Shown piece by piece: positions 26,296-31,731 of a stretch of 64,000 bases of DNA (positions within the stretch are counted from its first letter, which is position 1; each line of letters starts with the position of its first letter). This DNA comes from an uncultured Gemmiger sp. (lineage in GTDB: Bacteria; Bacillota; Clostridia; Oscillospirales; Ruminococcaceae). A program made the position numbers and the translations under genes. Location of the stretch: assembly GCA_944386495.1 (NCBI GenBank), contig CALXBE010000007.1, positions 48,112 to 112,111 on the forward strand, read 5' to 3'. The notes below the pieces were generated by a model. That model did no database searches. It saw nothing but the letters and a program-made list of their open reading frames with translations, and was not told where the DNA came from.

Positions 26296-26892
26296 ATGCT
26301 TATGTCTACTGGTATTCTGCGGGTCAGCACCTTTGATGTGCGCCAGTCCGCCCCGGTCCCCAATGCGGAGATCCGGGTAACGGGGGAAGGGCTGGACAGG
26401 ACCTTTACCACCGACGGGAACGGACTGTCCCCCGACCTGTCCATTCCCGCCCCGGACAAGAAATACAGTCTGGAGGAATCCAACACCACCGTACAGCCCT
26501 GGTCCAGTGTGGACCTGGTGGCCCGGGCCCCCGGGTATGAGGAACTGACCCTGACCGGCATCCAGATTTTTGACGGTCAGGTGACTCTGGCTCAGCTGGA
26601 ACTGACCCCTCGGATGGGCCGGGCAGGAGGCGAGCCCCAGAAGGTGGAAATCCCGCCCCATTCCCTCTTTGTAGGGGGAGGAGGAAGCGGCCCCGCCCCC
26701 ACCTTTACCGAGGAGGAAGAAAACGCCCGGGTTCTTCAGAAGGTGATCATCCCCAAGTCCATCACCGTCCATCTGGGTTCTCCCTCCTCCAATGCCAAGA
26801 ATGTGACCGTCAGCTTCAAAAGCTATATTGCCAATGTAGCCAGCAGTGAGGTCTACCCTACCTGGGCGGGGGCACCCATCCCAACCTTCTAA
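26296..26892 (+). CDS. 5' part of a split SpoIID-like / peptidoglycan-binding protein gene
   Basis: 198 residues as it stands. Residues 1-105 look like a carboxypeptidase-regulatory (beta-sandwich) domain, then a Gly/Pro linker. From about residue 165 comes the start of a SpoIID-type domain, KSYIANVASSEVYPTW, whose Glu matches the catalytic Glu of that lytic-transglycosylase family. The domain then breaks off, and after Trp190 only eight unrelated residues precede the stop. Those residues are encoded by the inserted element. The missing remainder starts at 29825. A second ATG at 26302 is an alternative start. I see no convincing promoter in the short upstream gap; a sporulation-sigma promoter is possible but not shown. 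Confidence 0.8.
   Translation: MLMSTGILRVSTFDVRQSAPVPNAEIRVTGEGLDRTFTTDGNGLSPDLSIPAPDKKYSLEESNTTVQPWSSVDLVARAPGYEELTLTGIQIFDGQVTLAQLELTPRMGRAGGEPQKVEIPPHSLFVGGGGSGPAPTFTEEEENARVLQKVIIPKSITVHLGSPSSNAKNVTVSFKSYIANVASSEVYPTWAGAPIPTF
26853..26874. other. Left attachment site (attL) of the inserted element
   Basis: Contains CCTGG (26861-26865), repeated at 29820-29824; extended, CCCTACCTGG matches CCCTTCCTGG in 9 of 10 bases. The proposed crossover dinucleotide is TG at 26863-26864. Confidence 0.65.
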
Positions 26893-28421
26893 AACTTCCA
26901 GACCAGGAGGATTTCCTGTGTCCCCTCCTTTCGGGGAGAGACCAGAATCCTTTCCACCAGTCCCACCGCCAGGTCCCGGGTAAGGGCGGGGACCCGGGTC
27001 AATGCCTCTGCCCGGGCCTTCCGGTCCGCCGCCAGGGTCTCGGGGTCAGGCAGCCGGGCCAGGGCCTCCTCCAGCACCTGCCGCTGACGGGTCAGCCCTT
27101 CCTTTTCCAGGAGGAAGGTCCGGGAAAGTTCCTCAAAGGTTGCCCGGTCCAGGGTCCCCTCCCCTCTGTCCAGCCAGAGGGCTTCCAGGGCTTTCTGCCG
27201 CCGGGCCAGCTCCCGGTCTATTCCCCGGATTTCCCCTTCCAGCGCCTGCCGCTGCCGGGCCGGGGAATCTTCCGCCGGAGCAAAGGGTATCTGTTCCGGG
27301 TCAAACCAGGCGGCGGCATACCGGCGAACCCGGTCCAGCACCAGACCTTCCAGGGATTCCAGGGGGGTGCAGGTGCTGTTGGAGCACCGGTCCGGGGCCC
27401 GCTGGTGGACCCGGCACCGGAGATACCGCCGCCCCCCTGTGCCGGTCTGTTCCAGAATACTGCCGCACCCGGCGCAGACCGCCAGCCGGGCCAGGGGATG
27501 TATCTGCCCGCTTCCCCCGCTTCTGGCCCGGTCCCGGAGCAGCTCCTGGACCCGGTCAAAGGTCCGGGGCGGGACCAAAGGCTGGTGGGTCCCCTCCACC
27601 ACCATCCACTGGTCGGGGGGCAGGTTCACCGTCCGCTTGGACCGGTAACTTATCTTCCGGTGGCGGCCCTGGACCAGGTCCCCGGCATAGGTCCGGTTAT
27701 GCAGAATCCGGCTGACGGTGGCAGGAGACCAGAGGGGCCGCTCCCCCGCACCGGGGCAGGGTATCCCCTCCATGGCCTTCCGGGCCGCCGGGGAGGGTAT
27801 CCCCTCCCCGTTCAGCACCCGGGCGATTTTCCGGGCTCCCGCTCCCCCCAGGGCCAGGGCAAATATCCGCCGGACCACCGGGGCGGTCTCCCGGTCCGGA
27901 ATCAGCCGCCCTTTATCCGCCGGGTCCTTCCGGTAGCCGTAGAGGGGAAAGGAAGCAATGTACACCCCCTGCCGCCGTTTCTGGTCCAGCACCGACCGGA
28001 CACTGGCGGACAGGTCCTCCAGATACCACTGGTTGACCAGGCCGTTGATCTGCCTGGATTTCTTTCCTGCCCGGTCCTGGGTGTCCACCCGGTCCACCAC
28101 CGCAATGAACCGAATTCCCCATTCCGGGAACTTTCCGTGAAGATATTTTTCCACCAGCTCCATATCCCGGGTAAACCGGGACTGGGTCTTGGCCAGGACC
28201 AAATCAAACTGATGGGCCTGGGCTGCTCGAATCAATGCCCGGAATCCGGGCCGGTCCCGGTCCATCCCCGAGTAATCCTCGTCCCAGTAGATGCCCGCCA
28301 GCTCATACCCCTGGTCCAGGGCATACTGGGTCAGAAGGGCTTTCTGGTTCCGGATGCTCTCTGACTCCCCCGTTTTCTCCCGGTCCTCCCGGCTCAGCCG
28401 GCAGTAGATGGCAGCTTTCAT
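26889..28421 (-). CDS. Large serine recombinase (site-specific integrase/excisionase)
   Basis: 510 residues from the ATG at 28421 (AAGGAGG site nine bases before). The resolvase domain has the nucleophile Ser10 in YCRLSRED and the active-site arginines of SRFTRD (81-86). A recombinase domain follows, then a zinc ribbon CAGC...C...C near 305-335 and a charged coiled coil (about 400-470), as in phage-type large serine integrases. No damage is visible, so it should be active. The stop codon lies 24 bases inside the element's left border and overlaps the stop of the interrupted gene by four bases. Confidence 0.95.
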   Translation of the reverse strand: MKAAIYCRLSREDREKTGESESIRNQKALLTQYALDQGYELAGIYWDEDYSGMDRDRPGFRALIRAAQAHQFDLVLAKTQSRFTRDMELVEKYLHGKFPEWGIRFIAVVDRVDTQDRAGKKSRQINGLVNQWYLEDLSASVRSVLDQKRRQGVYIASFPLYGYRKDPADKGRLIPDRETAPVVRRIFALALGGAGARKIARVLNGEGIPSPAARKAMEGIPCPGAGERPLWSPATVSRILHNRTYAGDLVQGRHRKISYRSKRTVNLPPDQWMVVEGTHQPLVPPRTFDRVQELLRDRARSGGSGQIHPLARLAVCAGCGSILEQTGTGGRRYLRCRVHQRAPDRCSNSTCTPLESLEGLVLDRVRRYAAAWFDPEQIPFAPAEDSPARQRQALEGEIRGIDRELARRQKALEALWLDRGEGTLDRATFEELSRTFLLEKEGLTRQRQVLEEALARLPDPETLAADRKARAEALTRVPALTRDLAVGLVERILVSPRKEGTQEILLVWKF

Positions 28422-28554
28422 CCCCCATTCCTCCTTCCCGGGCCAGGGCCTGGGCCAGATATTCCCCGAACAGCCGCCGGAACCCTTCCTGCCGTCCGGC
28501 AGGGTCCGGGGCGGCGAACCGCTCCTCCACCCGGAACTCCCGGTTTTCCACCAT
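28303..28554 (-). CDS. Small ORF upstream of and overlapping the recombinase start
   Basis: 83 codons from an ATG at 28554, preceded by AAAGGGGGCGGG. The N-terminal half (MVENREFRVEERF ... RRLFGEYLAQALAREG) looks like a real amphipathic, charged helix; the C-terminal half overlaps the recombinase in another frame and is rich in Pro and Gly. Clostridial serine recombinases are often preceded by such small proteins. A recombination directionality factor is a possible role but pure inference. It may also be non-coding. Confidence 0.35.
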   Translation of the reverse strand: MVENREFRVEERFAAPDPAGRQEGFRRLFGEYLAQALAREGGMGDESCHLLPAEPGGPGENGGVREHPEPESPSDPVCPGPGV

Positions 28555-28640
28555 CCCGCCCCCTTTCGGTGGAATTCTCTCTGTTTCATTTTTATGGACC
28601 GGGCAGGCCGGTGAGAACCGGAAACCGAGGGTTCTCCCTC

Positions 28641-28670
28641 TTGACGGCAGGCCCCGGCCAGGGGTATTCT
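28641..28670 (+). promoter_or_regulatory. Promoter of the alpha-hydroxy-acid oxidase gene
   Basis: TTGACG (28641-28646), 18-base spacer, TATTCT (28665-28670). A leader hairpin CCCGGGG-TTT-CCCCGGG (around 28687-28703) follows before the ribosome site. Confidence 0.55.
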
Positions 28671-28726
28671 TGAATTGAAAATAAAACCCGGGGTTTCCCC
28701 GGGACGGGAATCGAGGAGGAAGTTCC

Positions 28727-29752
28727 ATGACCTATGCTGATGTACTGAGTAACGCCCGCCAGGCTCTGGGGGGAAGCTGCAAAGCCTGCCCTGTCTGCAA
28801 CGGAGTCGCCTGCCGAAACCGAATCCCCGGTCCCGGAGCCAAAGGGGTGGGGGACACCGCCATCCGGAACTATGAAAAGTGGGGGGATATCCGGCTCAAT
28901 ATGGACACCATCTGGGAGGGAGGCCAGACAGATACCTCCTGCACCCTTTTTGGCCGGACCTTCCGGTATCCCTTCTTTGCAGGGCCGGTGGGGGCGGTAA
29001 ACCTCCACTACTCCGATGCCTACAATGACCTGACCTACAATGATGTGCTGGTCCGGGCCTGTGCCGAGAACGGCATCGCCGCCTTTACCGGGGACGGCGC
29101 CGACCCTGCGGTCATGGAGAAGGCCACCCTGGCCATTGGAAACGCCCAGGGTCTGGGAGTTCCCACCATCAAGCCCTGGGACCTGGACACCATCCGGGAA
29201 AAGATGGCCCTGGCCCTGGCCAGCGGCTGTTTTGCCCTGGCCATGGATGTGGATGCCGCCGGCCTGCCCTTTTTGAAGCACCACACTCCCCCTGCCGGCA
29301 GCAAGACCACGGAACAGCTTCGGGAGATTGCGGAGATGGCCGGCCGTCCCTTCATTGTAAAGGGAATCATGACCGTAAAGGGAGCCCTCAAGGCCGCCCA
29401 GGCAGGCGCCGCCGCCATTGTGGTGTCCAACCACGGGGGACGGGTGCTGGACCAGTGCCCCGCCACCGCTGAGGTTCTGCCTGAAATCGCCGCCGCCCTC
29501 AAGGGAAGTGACACCGCCATTCTGGTGGACGGAGGCATCCGCACCGGCACCGACATCTTCAAGGCGCTGGCCCTGGGTGCCAAGGGGGTGCTGATCGCCC
29601 GGCCCTTTGTCACCGCCGTTTACGGCGGCGGGGAGGAGGGGGTCCGCCTTCTCATTGAAAAGCTGGGCGGGGAGCTGGCCGATGCCATGGAAATGTGCGG
29701 GGCCGCCTCTCTGGCAGACATCACCCCCGACATGGTCCGTCTCTCCAAGTAA
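28727..29752 (+). CDS. FMN-dependent alpha-hydroxy-acid oxidase/dehydrogenase (lactate-oxidase-like)
   Basis: 341 residues, TIM-barrel flavoprotein. The catalytic His236 and Arg239 are in SNHGGR, and the FMN-phosphate loop is DGGIRTGTD. The N-terminus has a Cys cluster (CKACPVCNGVAC) not found in classical lactate oxidase but which I recall from clostridial relatives. It would oxidise a 2-hydroxy acid to a 2-oxo acid; the electron acceptor in an anaerobe is unclear. It lies inside the inserted element, as cargo. Confidence 0.88.
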   Translation: MTYADVLSNARQALGGSCKACPVCNGVACRNRIPGPGAKGVGDTAIRNYEKWGDIRLNMDTIWEGGQTDTSCTLFGRTFRYPFFAGPVGAVNLHYSDAYNDLTYNDVLVRACAENGIAAFTGDGADPAVMEKATLAIGNAQGLGVPTIKPWDLDTIREKMALALASGCFALAMDVDAAGLPFLKHHTPPAGSKTTEQLREIAEMAGRPFIVKGIMTVKGALKAAQAGAAAIVVSNHGGRVLDQCPATAEVLPEIAAALKGSDTAILVDGGIRTGTDIFKALALGAKGVLIARPFVTAVYGGGEEGVRLLIEKLGGELADAMEMCGAASLADITPDMVRLSK

Positions 29753-29767
29753 ATATTCTGTTCCCAT

Positions 29768-29799
29768 GCCGCCGGAGGCCCTGGTCCCGGCGGCTTTTT
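29768..29799 (+). terminator. Terminator after the oxidase, inside the element
   Basis: Stem GCCGCCGG / CCGGCGGC (29768-29794) then five T. It would stop transcription from the element just before the right half of the split gene. Confidence 0.85.
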
Positions 29800-29811
29800 C
29801 TTTGGGATAAT

Positions 29812-29833
29812 TGCCCCTTCCTGGCCGGAGGAG
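29812..29833. other. Right attachment site (attR) of the inserted element
   Basis: Contains CCTGG (29820-29824). The circular junction after excision would read TGCCCCTTCC, then TG, then GGCGGGGGCA: ten-base arms that are inverted repeats in 8 of 10 positions, as expected of an attP. Confidence 0.65.
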
Positions 29834-31045
29834 GCCCTGCGGGCCAACATCCATGCCCAGATCAGCCTGGCCCTCAACCGTATTTTTACGGAATGGTACC
29901 CCAGCCGGGGCTATAACTTCAACATTACCGGCAGCCCCAGCTACGACCAGGCCTATGTCCAAGGGCGGACGGTATTCGATGTGATGCAGCGGCTCACCGA
30001 CGAGATATTCAACACCTATGTGCGGCGAAAAGGAAAGATAGACCCCTACTTTACCGAGTACTGCGACGGAAAGACGGTCAGCTGCAAGGGGATGAAGCAG
30101 TGGGGCACCGTGGACCGGGCCAACGAGGGGAAAAAGGCCCTGGAGATTCTCCGGTACTATTACGGCAGCAACATTGAGGTGGTGGAGACCAACAACATCC
30201 AGTCCATCCCGGCCAGCTATCCCGGCAGTCCCCTGCGCCGGGGCAGCAGCGGGGAGAATGTGAAAATCATCCAGCGGCAGCTGAACCGAATCGCCAAGGA
30301 TTACCCGGCTTTCGGCACCCTGACGGTGGACGGCAAATTCGGAAAAGCCACCGAGGACACGGTGAAAAAATTCCAGAAGCAGTTCGGCCTGACCCAGGAC
30401 GGGGTGGTGGGAAAATCCACCTGGTACAAAATCTCCTATATCTATGTATCGGTCACCGACCTGGCCCAGCTGACCAGCGAGGGAATCCCCCAGACCGGCA
30501 CCGTCCCCTATCCCGGTACCGCCCTGCGCCAGGGCAGCACCGGGTCGGATGTGCGGCAGATACAGACCTGGCTCAACGGGGTATCGGACACCACGGCAGG
30601 GGTGACCCCCCTGACCGTGGACGGAAAGTTCGGCCCTGCCACCCAGACCGCCGTCCGGGCCTTCCAGAAAGCCTACGGCCTGAGGGTGGACGGAATCGTG
30701 GGCCGGTCTACCTGGACCTCCCTGAACCAGGCCTACCTGTCCGACACCCAGGGGATAGCCCGGGCTCTGGACCAGGCGCCCCAGCTTCCCGCTGCCCTGG
30801 GGGACCGGGGAGACACGGTGGGAGCCATCGCCCAGCGGCTGGAACTGGTGGCCTATTATCTCCCCGATGTGACCAGCTACGGGTACACCACCCAGTATGA
30901 CGAGCTGCTGGAAGCCAGCGTGAAAACCTTCCAGGCCAGGGAAGGGCTGCCCCAGACCGGAATCACCGACCAGGCCACCTGGGACCGGCTGGAGACAGTG
31001 TATTTTGCCCTGCTGGAGGATGCCGTGGAGATACAGGAGGGATAA
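29825..31045 (+). CDS. 3' part of the split SpoIID-like / peptidoglycan-binding protein gene
   Basis: The frame is open from 29753 but has no start with a ribosome site before ATG 29981, so in the present arrangement the first 52 codons from 29825 would not be translated. PEEALRANIHAQISLALNRI continues the SpoIID-type domain of the left half. Three peptidoglycan-binding (PG_binding_1) repeats follow, each with a G-x-V-x-x-I-Q start and a VDGKFG or comparable turn: about 30221-30440, 30520-30735 and 30780-31015. Together with the left part it would bind and act on spore or vegetative peptidoglycan. The next gene begins two bases after the stop. Confidence 0.82.
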   Translation, partial: PEEALRANIHAQISLALNRIFTEWYPSRGYNFNITGSPSYDQAYVQGRTVFDVMQRLTDEIFNTYVRRKGKIDPYFTEYCDGKTVSCKGMKQWGTVDRANEGKKALEILRYYYGSNIEVVETNNIQSIPASYPGSPLRRGSSGENVKIIQRQLNRIAKDYPAFGTLTVDGKFGKATEDTVKKFQKQFGLTQDGVVGKSTWYKISYIYVSVTDLAQLTSEGIPQTGTVPYPGTALRQGSTGSDVRQIQTWLNGVSDTTAGVTPLTVDGKFGPATQTAVRAFQKAYGLRVDGIVGRSTWTSLNQAYLSDTQGIARALDQAPQLPAALGDRGDTVGAIAQRLELVAYYLPDVTSYGYTTQYDELLEASVKTFQAREGLPQTGITDQATWDRLETVYFALLEDAVEIQEG

Positions 31046-31047
31046 CT

Positions 31048-31731
31048 ATGGCAAAGGTTTTTGTATATGACGAGGCGGAAAACCGGCTCCGCAGCTACAA
31101 TTTGTCCGAGAGCGACCCCATGCCCTACTCTGCCGGGACCACCCTCCGGGTGCGGGAGTTCCGGGGAAGCAGCAAATCCTCGGTGCTCTGGACCACCACC
31201 CGGGCCATGGAGGCCTGGAACCTGACCCGCCGGGCTTACGGGAAGGGAATCTATGTAGGCTACGCCTTCAAGCGTATCTGGGAGGGCGGCCACGGCACCA
31301 CCAGCCAGCACTACGCCGGGGTGGCCTTTGATGTGGGCCAGAACACCACCTCCTCTGCCCGGCAGCAGATTTACAACACCGCCCGTGCCACCGGGGCCTG
31401 GGGATATGTGGAACCCCTCAACCTGACCCCCACCTGGGTCCATTTTGACCGGCGGTACGGCAAGCCCGCCTGCGGAGGGACCAGCGGCTATCCCACCCTC
31501 CGGCAGGGAAGCATCAGCACCTATGTGCTCATCTGTCAGGATGCCCTTAACGCCCTGGGGTACAATGCCGGTTCCCTGGACGGGAAATACGGCAGCAACA
31601 CCATCTCGGCAGTGAAGAAGTTCCAGCGGAACTTTGGGCTGACCGCAGACGGCATCTGCGGCTGCAACACCTGGAAAAAGCTGGCGGGAGCCGCTGTGGG
31701 GATCGGCCGCACCTCCACAGTGCGGGATTAA
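31048..31731 (+). CDS. M15-type peptidase with peptidoglycan-binding domain
   Basis: 227 residues. The zinc-binding motif SQHYAGVAFDVG (about 89-100) and the later His of PTWVHFD are those of the VanY/D-Ala-D-Ala carboxypeptidase M15 fold; a PG_binding_1 domain (about 148-215) ends the protein. No signal peptide is obvious. It is placed two bases after the split gene, which suggests that the two act on the same wall substrate, perhaps spore cortex. Confidence 0.85.
   Translation: MAKVFVYDEAENRLRSYNLSESDPMPYSAGTTLRVREFRGSSKSSVLWTTTRAMEAWNLTRRAYGKGIYVGYAFKRIWEGGHGTTSQHYAGVAFDVGQNTTSSARQQIYNTARATGAWGYVEPLNLTPTWVHFDRRYGKPACGGTSGYPTLRQGSISTYVLICQDALNALGYNAGSLDGKYGSNTISAVKKFQRNFGLTADGICGCNTWKKLAGAAVGIGRTSTVRD

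Follow-up and report, generated by a model that had tools for sequence, protein, structure and literature searches.

The interrupted sleC gene

The stretch analysed here, referred to as the window, comprises 64,000 nucleotides of an uncultured Gemmiger sp. (GCA_944386495.1, contig CALXBE010000007.1, positions 48,112 to 112,111; G000:C7:48112-112111 in our genome set), whose assembly of 1.89 Mb in 26 contigs is 81% complete. Within it, the sleC gene is split by a 2,959 bp element, located between positions 26865 and 29825, which carries a large serine recombinase. The 5' half of the gene (26296..26865, forward strand) ends at the TGG of the sequence ...SEVYPTW, its open reading frame (ORF) continuing to a stop codon at 26890-26892 within the element, and the 3' part (29825..31045, forward strand) encodes the remainder of a SpoIID-like domain followed by three PG_binding_1 repeats (PF01471, three stretches). 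When the halves are put together in silico, the frame is restored and the translation has no stops.

A first-pass annotation of this DNA had drawn much the same outline: a left ORF stopping eight residues past the SpoIID-type motif ASSEVYPTW, a right ORF in another frame lacking a start of its own, an insert of 2,959 bases with an intact recombinase, CCTGG at both borders, and an uninterrupted protein upon joining. Coordinates, frames and borders were as it had described them; the first ATG, GTG or TTG in frame after the stop upstream of the right half is a GTG at 29981 (residue 53), and no gap is seen at the junction in uninterrupted homologues, either PDB 9h68 or the relatives G014, G020, G010, G022 and G033. 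The insertion had been placed seven residues after a presumed catalytic Glu; the break actually lies 5 residues past the Glu of an SSE motif, which is presumably the catalytic residue, as in SpoIID.

The earlier label was a SpoIID/peptidoglycan-binding gene; the match to 9h68, a record titled 'Spore cortex-lytic enzyme pre-pro-form', supplied the specific identity. Residues 2-405 of the joined protein aligned with residues 58-476 of the chain (E 2.2e-78), and each half alone gave its own alignment (5' half, chain residues 58-258, E 5.9e-14; 3' part, 259-476, E 1.3e-55), the two lying back to back and meeting at residues 258/259. Because the joined protein and each half match 9h68 in this manner, the gene is, on sequence grounds, sleC with extra peptidoglycan-binding repeats. 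SleB was rejected as an identity, as the right half scored 113.8 bits against TIGR02869, below the cut-off of 236.5.

We see hardly any chance that the halves are two separate proteins that cooperate without DNA joining. A frame other than that of the catalytic part does give the match to the front part of sleC in 11 of 61 genomes, as if the front part were a separate ORF (G005, G012, G015, G021, G028, G030, G032, G036, G049, G057 and G059; loci L024-L027, L030 and L032 for some of them), but this frame change falls at about residues 105-150 and not at 189, the right half of the window gene lacks a start before residue 53, and the SpoIID-like domain is divided by the break. Homologues naturally split at the junction itself, which the first-pass annotation had named as evidence against its proposal, were not seen.

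Gene content of the element

The recombinase (510 aa; 26889..28421, reverse strand) exceeds the Pfam cut-offs for its Resolvase, Recombinase and Zn_ribbon_recom domains (PF00239, PF07508 and PF13408), and its Ser10 and the neighbouring residues are invariant in 15 aligned sequences. About 25 nt separate its 3' end from the sleC half. The top NCBIfam match was XisF, with a score of 89.7 bits, which is under the cut-off of 375, and the protein is not a member of that family.

The recombinase start is overlapped from upstream by a small ORF of 83 aa (28303..28554, reverse strand). A profile built from 12 such ORFs matched upstream of all 17 further sleC loci (8 from the same genomes as the training rows or from G002, and 9 new), at 11 of 49 loci of PRK06851, a second target gene treated below, and at 3 of 19 other loci, compared with 1 of 86 antisense controls. 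The small ORF may be regarded as a candidate recombination directionality factor; that of C. difficile, CD1234, has 53 residues (PMC10747680). The element also carries a cargo gene for a protein of the flavin mononucleotide (FMN)-dependent dehydrogenase family (28727..29752, forward strand; PF01070, E 5.5e-68), present in G000 and G002 and not found in G001 among the three genomes of the genus searched. A CATA box before the small ORF (28593..28596, reverse strand) weakly resembles the -10 element of sigmaE/K promoters. Between the att sites of the window element only the recombinase, the small ORF and the dehydrogenase gene were found, and no phage structural genes; prophage identity was rejected, since there is no room for a phage among these genes.

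From the junction reading and a comparison of dyads, the putative crossover dinucleotides were placed at TG 26863-26864 in attL (26841..26886) and at TG 29822-29823 in attR (29800..29845), in each case within CCTGG. The small ORF, the cargo gene and the attP dyad described below had been missed by the first-pass annotation. Downstream of sleC, a neighbouring gene with one PG_binding_1 stretch (31048..31731, forward strand) is also found 3' of sleC in several relatives.

Recurrence of the insertion at one sleC site

A 166-aa query spanning the junction matched 216 of the 396 genomes of the family. Of the matches, 25 were rechecked, and junctions were read; the resulting count of split genes is a lower bound. 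In at least 15 of the 396 genomes, belonging to 8 genera, the break in sleC follows the same codon (G000, G002, G027, G231, G162, G329, G245, G073, G229, G380, G412, G297, G310, G289 and G159), and each of these 15 has a recombinase of one clade near a sleC junction. Both halves lie on one contig in seven of them, with inserts of 2,959 bp (G000 and G002), 7,866 bp (G027), 7,875 bp (G231), 9,919 bp (G162), 8,512 bp (G329) and 12,046 bp (G245). Beyond the 15, the Subdoligranulum metagenome-assembled genome (MAG) L207 has an insert of 3,910 bp, and in the S. variabile record OY725846.1, labelled a circular plasmid, sleC is split by 31,979 bp; inserts on one contig or record span 3 to 32 kb. The first pass had described a small element in a gut clostridium; the phenomenon is confined neither to one such host nor to small elements.

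Each of the 15 elements shows a dyad centred on the TG of CCTGG when its inner ends are compared (11-21 of 22 positions), with the TG core at both ends in 15/15, as would be expected of an attP site. The dyad of the window's element scores 15 of 22; among the position pairs of the region with a dinucleotide in common, a fraction of 1.4e-4 does as well. In G027 the att pair ranked first in the region scanned. Pairing is also seen, at 11.6/22 on average, between ends of different elements, so part of the dyad signal is a shared arm motif. By the dyad search alone, the att pair of the window was not among the pairs listed, and the protein junction was needed to locate the att sites.

Uninterrupted sleC genes were found in seven of the eight genera, the eighth (g72) being represented by G073 only. 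G001, from the same genus as the window, has the empty site, which one of its contigs crosses. Another G001 contig stops 4 bases beyond the sleC junction and has exactly 127 bases in common with the one across the empty site; this fork of the assembly at the att site hints that both forms were present in one sample.

Such a fork could be left by a mixed population, and it bears on a reversible, non-developmental process in which the element would enter and leave the gene in some of the cells, whatever their stage, so that germination-competent and germination-incompetent spores would be mixed, either as bet hedging or because an ordinary mobile element often leaves. The yin element of yabG in C. 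botulinum offers a precedent, being excised at all time points, with a share that rises with sporulation (PMC10747680). However, the fork in G001 may have other causes, neither a related recombinase nor the cargo gene was found in that genome, and the neighbours of the recombinase family (sleC, the CD3298-like gene and cotJC, see below) point to sporulation genes and not to random ones. We hold this alternative to be unlikely, if the most serious of those considered.

Further observations were made at sleC. In G026 the gene is split elsewhere, in a peptidoglycan-binding repeat, with a shared ACACAG (L064). The sleC of G231 is interrupted twice, the second insert, of about 8.2 kb, lying near an unlike recombinase (L112 and L230). 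In one genus the cargo of sleC elements includes a bile salt hydrolase (L114:9755-10726, NF038245 over cut-off) and an oleate hydratase (L063:7143-8915, NF010584 over cut-off). In MT837840.1 (L229), a record named Bacteriophage sp., the left half of sleC adjoins the recombinase, and the record looks like a bacterial chromosomal fragment.

Selection on both halves of the split gene

Within the aligned stretches, no stop was present in 40 left and 40 right sleC sequences, drawn from every split genome except G310 (14 of the 15) and from 26 genomes with an intact gene. The ratios of nonsynonymous to synonymous substitution rates (dN/dS) for 10 split pairs were 0.10-0.34 in the left half and 0.03-0.23 in the right, and among 15 intact pairs, those with a computable dS gave 0.04-0.37 and 0-0.27, respectively; as some genomes enter more than one pair, the pairs are not independent, and several of the intact ones approach saturation. 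Stops inside the left sleC match occurred in G018, G029 and G046, none of which is among the 15. The 15 split genes and 12 intact ones showed the same degree of conservation in residues 1-51 of the right half. Since no start precedes them (checked in the window, up to residue 53), these residues would be readable only if the gene were joined. Both halves are under purifying selection like that of intact sleC.

An insertion in a coding gene usually means its loss, and no excision was observed here, which would fit a permanently inactivated sleC in cells whose cortex is opened by another enzyme. Against this stand the selection on both halves, the lack of stops throughout the aligned parts, also in the part without a start, and the retention of the recombinase and of att-like ends, and we consider permanent inactivation very improbable.

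The recombinase family and its other targets

A scan of named genomes returned 235 relatives of the recombinase, of which the best 80 were kept. Among these, the neighbouring gene piece is from sleC at 17 loci, from PRK06851 at 47 and from cotJC at 10, and 6 loci have none of the three; in 13 of the 47 PRK06851 loci both pieces of the gene are within the locus. Faecalibacterium, Gemmiger, Fournierella and Subdoligranulum are among the hosts of the named loci, and in those of F. prausnitzii and F. longum only the left sleC half was seen. Named strains that carry the element include Fournierella massiliensis DSM 100451, Gemmiger formicilis An812 and Subdoligranulum variabile TSDC17.2-1.1.

Together with 21 loci from the window and the unnamed-genome set, the 80 named loci gave 101, or 93 after removal of 8 identical proteins. 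Counted from the last sense codon, the median distance of the recombinase was 44 nt from sleC pieces, 79 nt from PRK06851 pieces and 829 nt from cotJC pieces, with maxima of 2,189, 3,905 and 2,715 nt; because the largest distances reach kilobases, the recombinases are described as beside these genes, and not in every locus as inside them. In a quick maximum-likelihood tree of the 93, all 24 rows at this sleC site formed one clade, with a support of 100 in the Shimodaira-Hasegawa-like approximate likelihood ratio test (SH-aLRT). The recombinase of G026, from the other sleC site, fell outside this clade. In the same tree the PRK06851 rows did not form one clade (7 changes needed), several long branches being unsure.

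In the copy of PRK06851 (NF005320) that was scanned (L194), profile positions 93 and 94 flank the break; at the PRK06851 loci, the last query residue of the front piece is 93 or 94 and the first of the back piece is 1, wherever these pieces are present. The break falls between DGTAP and HVVEP (47 of loci L135-L214; L069 and L072), and the hosts include Flintibacter, Lawsonibacter, Oscillibacter, Flavonifractor, Anaerotruncus, Marasmitruncus, Clostridium aestuarii and others. PRK06851 was equated with CD3298 of C. difficile in a paper on dual-wield NTPases (PMC10949312), and CD3298 (Cd630_32980) is reported to be expressed in the mother cell under SigE and to be required for packaging of dipicolinic acid (DPA) (PMC5509370).

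The third target was recognized by eye as cotJC, a coat protein of the manganese catalase type; its front piece scored 59.9 bits against the manganese catalase model NF052557, below the whole-protein cut-off of 350. Pieces of cotJC adjoin related recombinases at L071, L067 and L070, and at L186, L188, L191, L192, L195, L196, L201, L204, L205 and L208; both pieces occur in one locus, kilobases apart, at L186, L188, L196 and L201. It was the recombinase that led to PRK06851 and cotJC, so these two genes separately indicate that the family is tied to sporulation.

Sporulation genes in the host genomes

Matches to SpoIVA occurred in 14 of the 15 split genomes and in 17 of the 19 genomes searched overall, the two exceptions being G000 and G001, and Spo0A was found in four of the five genomes searched, all except G000. 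Both proteins were matched in G002, where SpoIIIAE had no match. The gaps may be due to assembly incompleteness, because G000 has SpoIIIAE and SpoVAD. Faecalibacterium is not known to sporulate; Spo0A and SpoIVA were both matched in G310, whose recombinase equals that of Faecalibacterium sp. An121.

Proposed excision during sporulation

The recurrence at one dinucleotide, the attP-like dyads and the recombinase clade tied to the site support a site-specific element that could be removed to restore the gene, as do the selection on both halves, the hosts with spore genes and the two further sporulation targets. The first-pass proposal of a skin-like element in a sporulation gene, restorable on precise excision, is thereby supported as far as sequences can tell. 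Insertion at a single site, a restorable gene and selection acting on the whole gene are read from these comparisons; that the element's own recombinase excises it in the mother cell is a further step, which we infer. We judge it very probable, and the best reading of the locus, that excision of the element in the mother cell during sporulation rebuilds sleC, as with skin.

Under this proposal, the recombinase, probably assisted by the small ORF as directionality factor, would recombine attL with attR in the mother cell during sporulation, releasing a circle and rejoining sleC in frame, and pre-pro-SleC would then be made and packed into the spore. In C. difficile, sleC is a mother-cell gene, and it belongs to the sigmaK regulon (PMC3789822). 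The forespore would retain the element, which would therefore be inherited, and the insertion would cost little because sleC is not needed in vegetative cells.

Several points weigh against mother-cell excision. Neither an excised junction nor a circle was seen in the assembled sequence, and one scan of viral contigs with an attP pattern gave no match. The SpoIVA and Spo0A searches gave no match in the window's own MAG, which is 81% complete, though G002 has both. In 8 of the 15 split genomes the pairing of the halves is inferred, because they lie on different contigs. The sigma-type promoter is a weak candidate that some elements lack, CATA boxes preceding several recombinase operons and not all, and the small ORF is no more than a candidate directionality factor.

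The viral contigs yielded 14 relatives, none with a sleC or PRK06851 match. Three records were considered as circular forms and rejected: MT837840.1, the nearest phage record listed, is a fragment with the left sleC half beside the recombinase; OY725846.1 (Subdoligranulum variabile) itself contains the split sleC; and in OY725852.1 (S. variabile, labelled a circular plasmid), considered as an excised cotJC circle, the cotJC end adjoins the recombinase, unlike in an excised circle.

Relation to known intervening elements and implications

Published sporulation genes interrupted by such elements are sigK, spsM, spoVFB, spoVR, gerE and yabG (PMC10747680, PMC5025042, PMC4191935, PMC5595907). Skin, in the sigK of B. 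subtilis and C. difficile, is likewise a large serine recombinase element that splits a mother-cell sporulation gene; skin is excised to restore sigK, as is proposed for sleC. Target and recombinase differ, and skinCd has 19 genes against two genes and a small ORF (PMC5025042). The gin element in gerE of B. cereus resembles it in combining non-phage cargo and a serine recombinase in a sporulation gene, but spans 28.6 kb with three recombinases (PMC5595907), against 3 kb and one recombinase in the window. Yin is also clostridial and acts on the same germination pathway, YabG of C. difficile processing pre-pro-SleC, but it is prophage-like and described as unique to one strain (PMC10747680), whereas the sleC insertion recurs over genera. 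The elements vfbin (spoVFB), vrin (spoVR) and SPbeta (spsM) follow the same principle, with phage genes, in Bacilli and at other targets (PMC4191935). XisF, of the fdxN element of cyanobacteria and the top NCBIfam match above, is a developmental excision recombinase as well.

In the literature searched, from which most subscription journals were absent, nothing was found on an interruption of sleC, of a CD3298-like gene or of cotJC. As far as seen, this kind of system was already known, and the novelty lies in sleC as a target, in a recombinase clade linked to that target and in the small metabolic cargo. We lean towards a broader interpretation, which seems somewhat more probable than its opposite: a recombinase family of gut Clostridia would have specialized in mother-cell sporulation genes as harmless harbours for small metabolic islands (the FMN dehydrogenase in the window; bile salt hydrolase and oleate hydratase elsewhere), with one clade for sleC and others for the CD3298-like DPA-packaging ATPase gene and cotJC, making germination dependent on excision in each sporulating cell.

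If this is true, programmed DNA excision would be common in gut Clostridia and not limited to a few Bacillus and Clostridium strains, excision could gate germination directly through SleC, and many new pairs of recombinases and att sites would be on offer. It would also account for the broken sleC, CD3298-like and cotJC genes in assemblies, which annotation may call pseudogenes.

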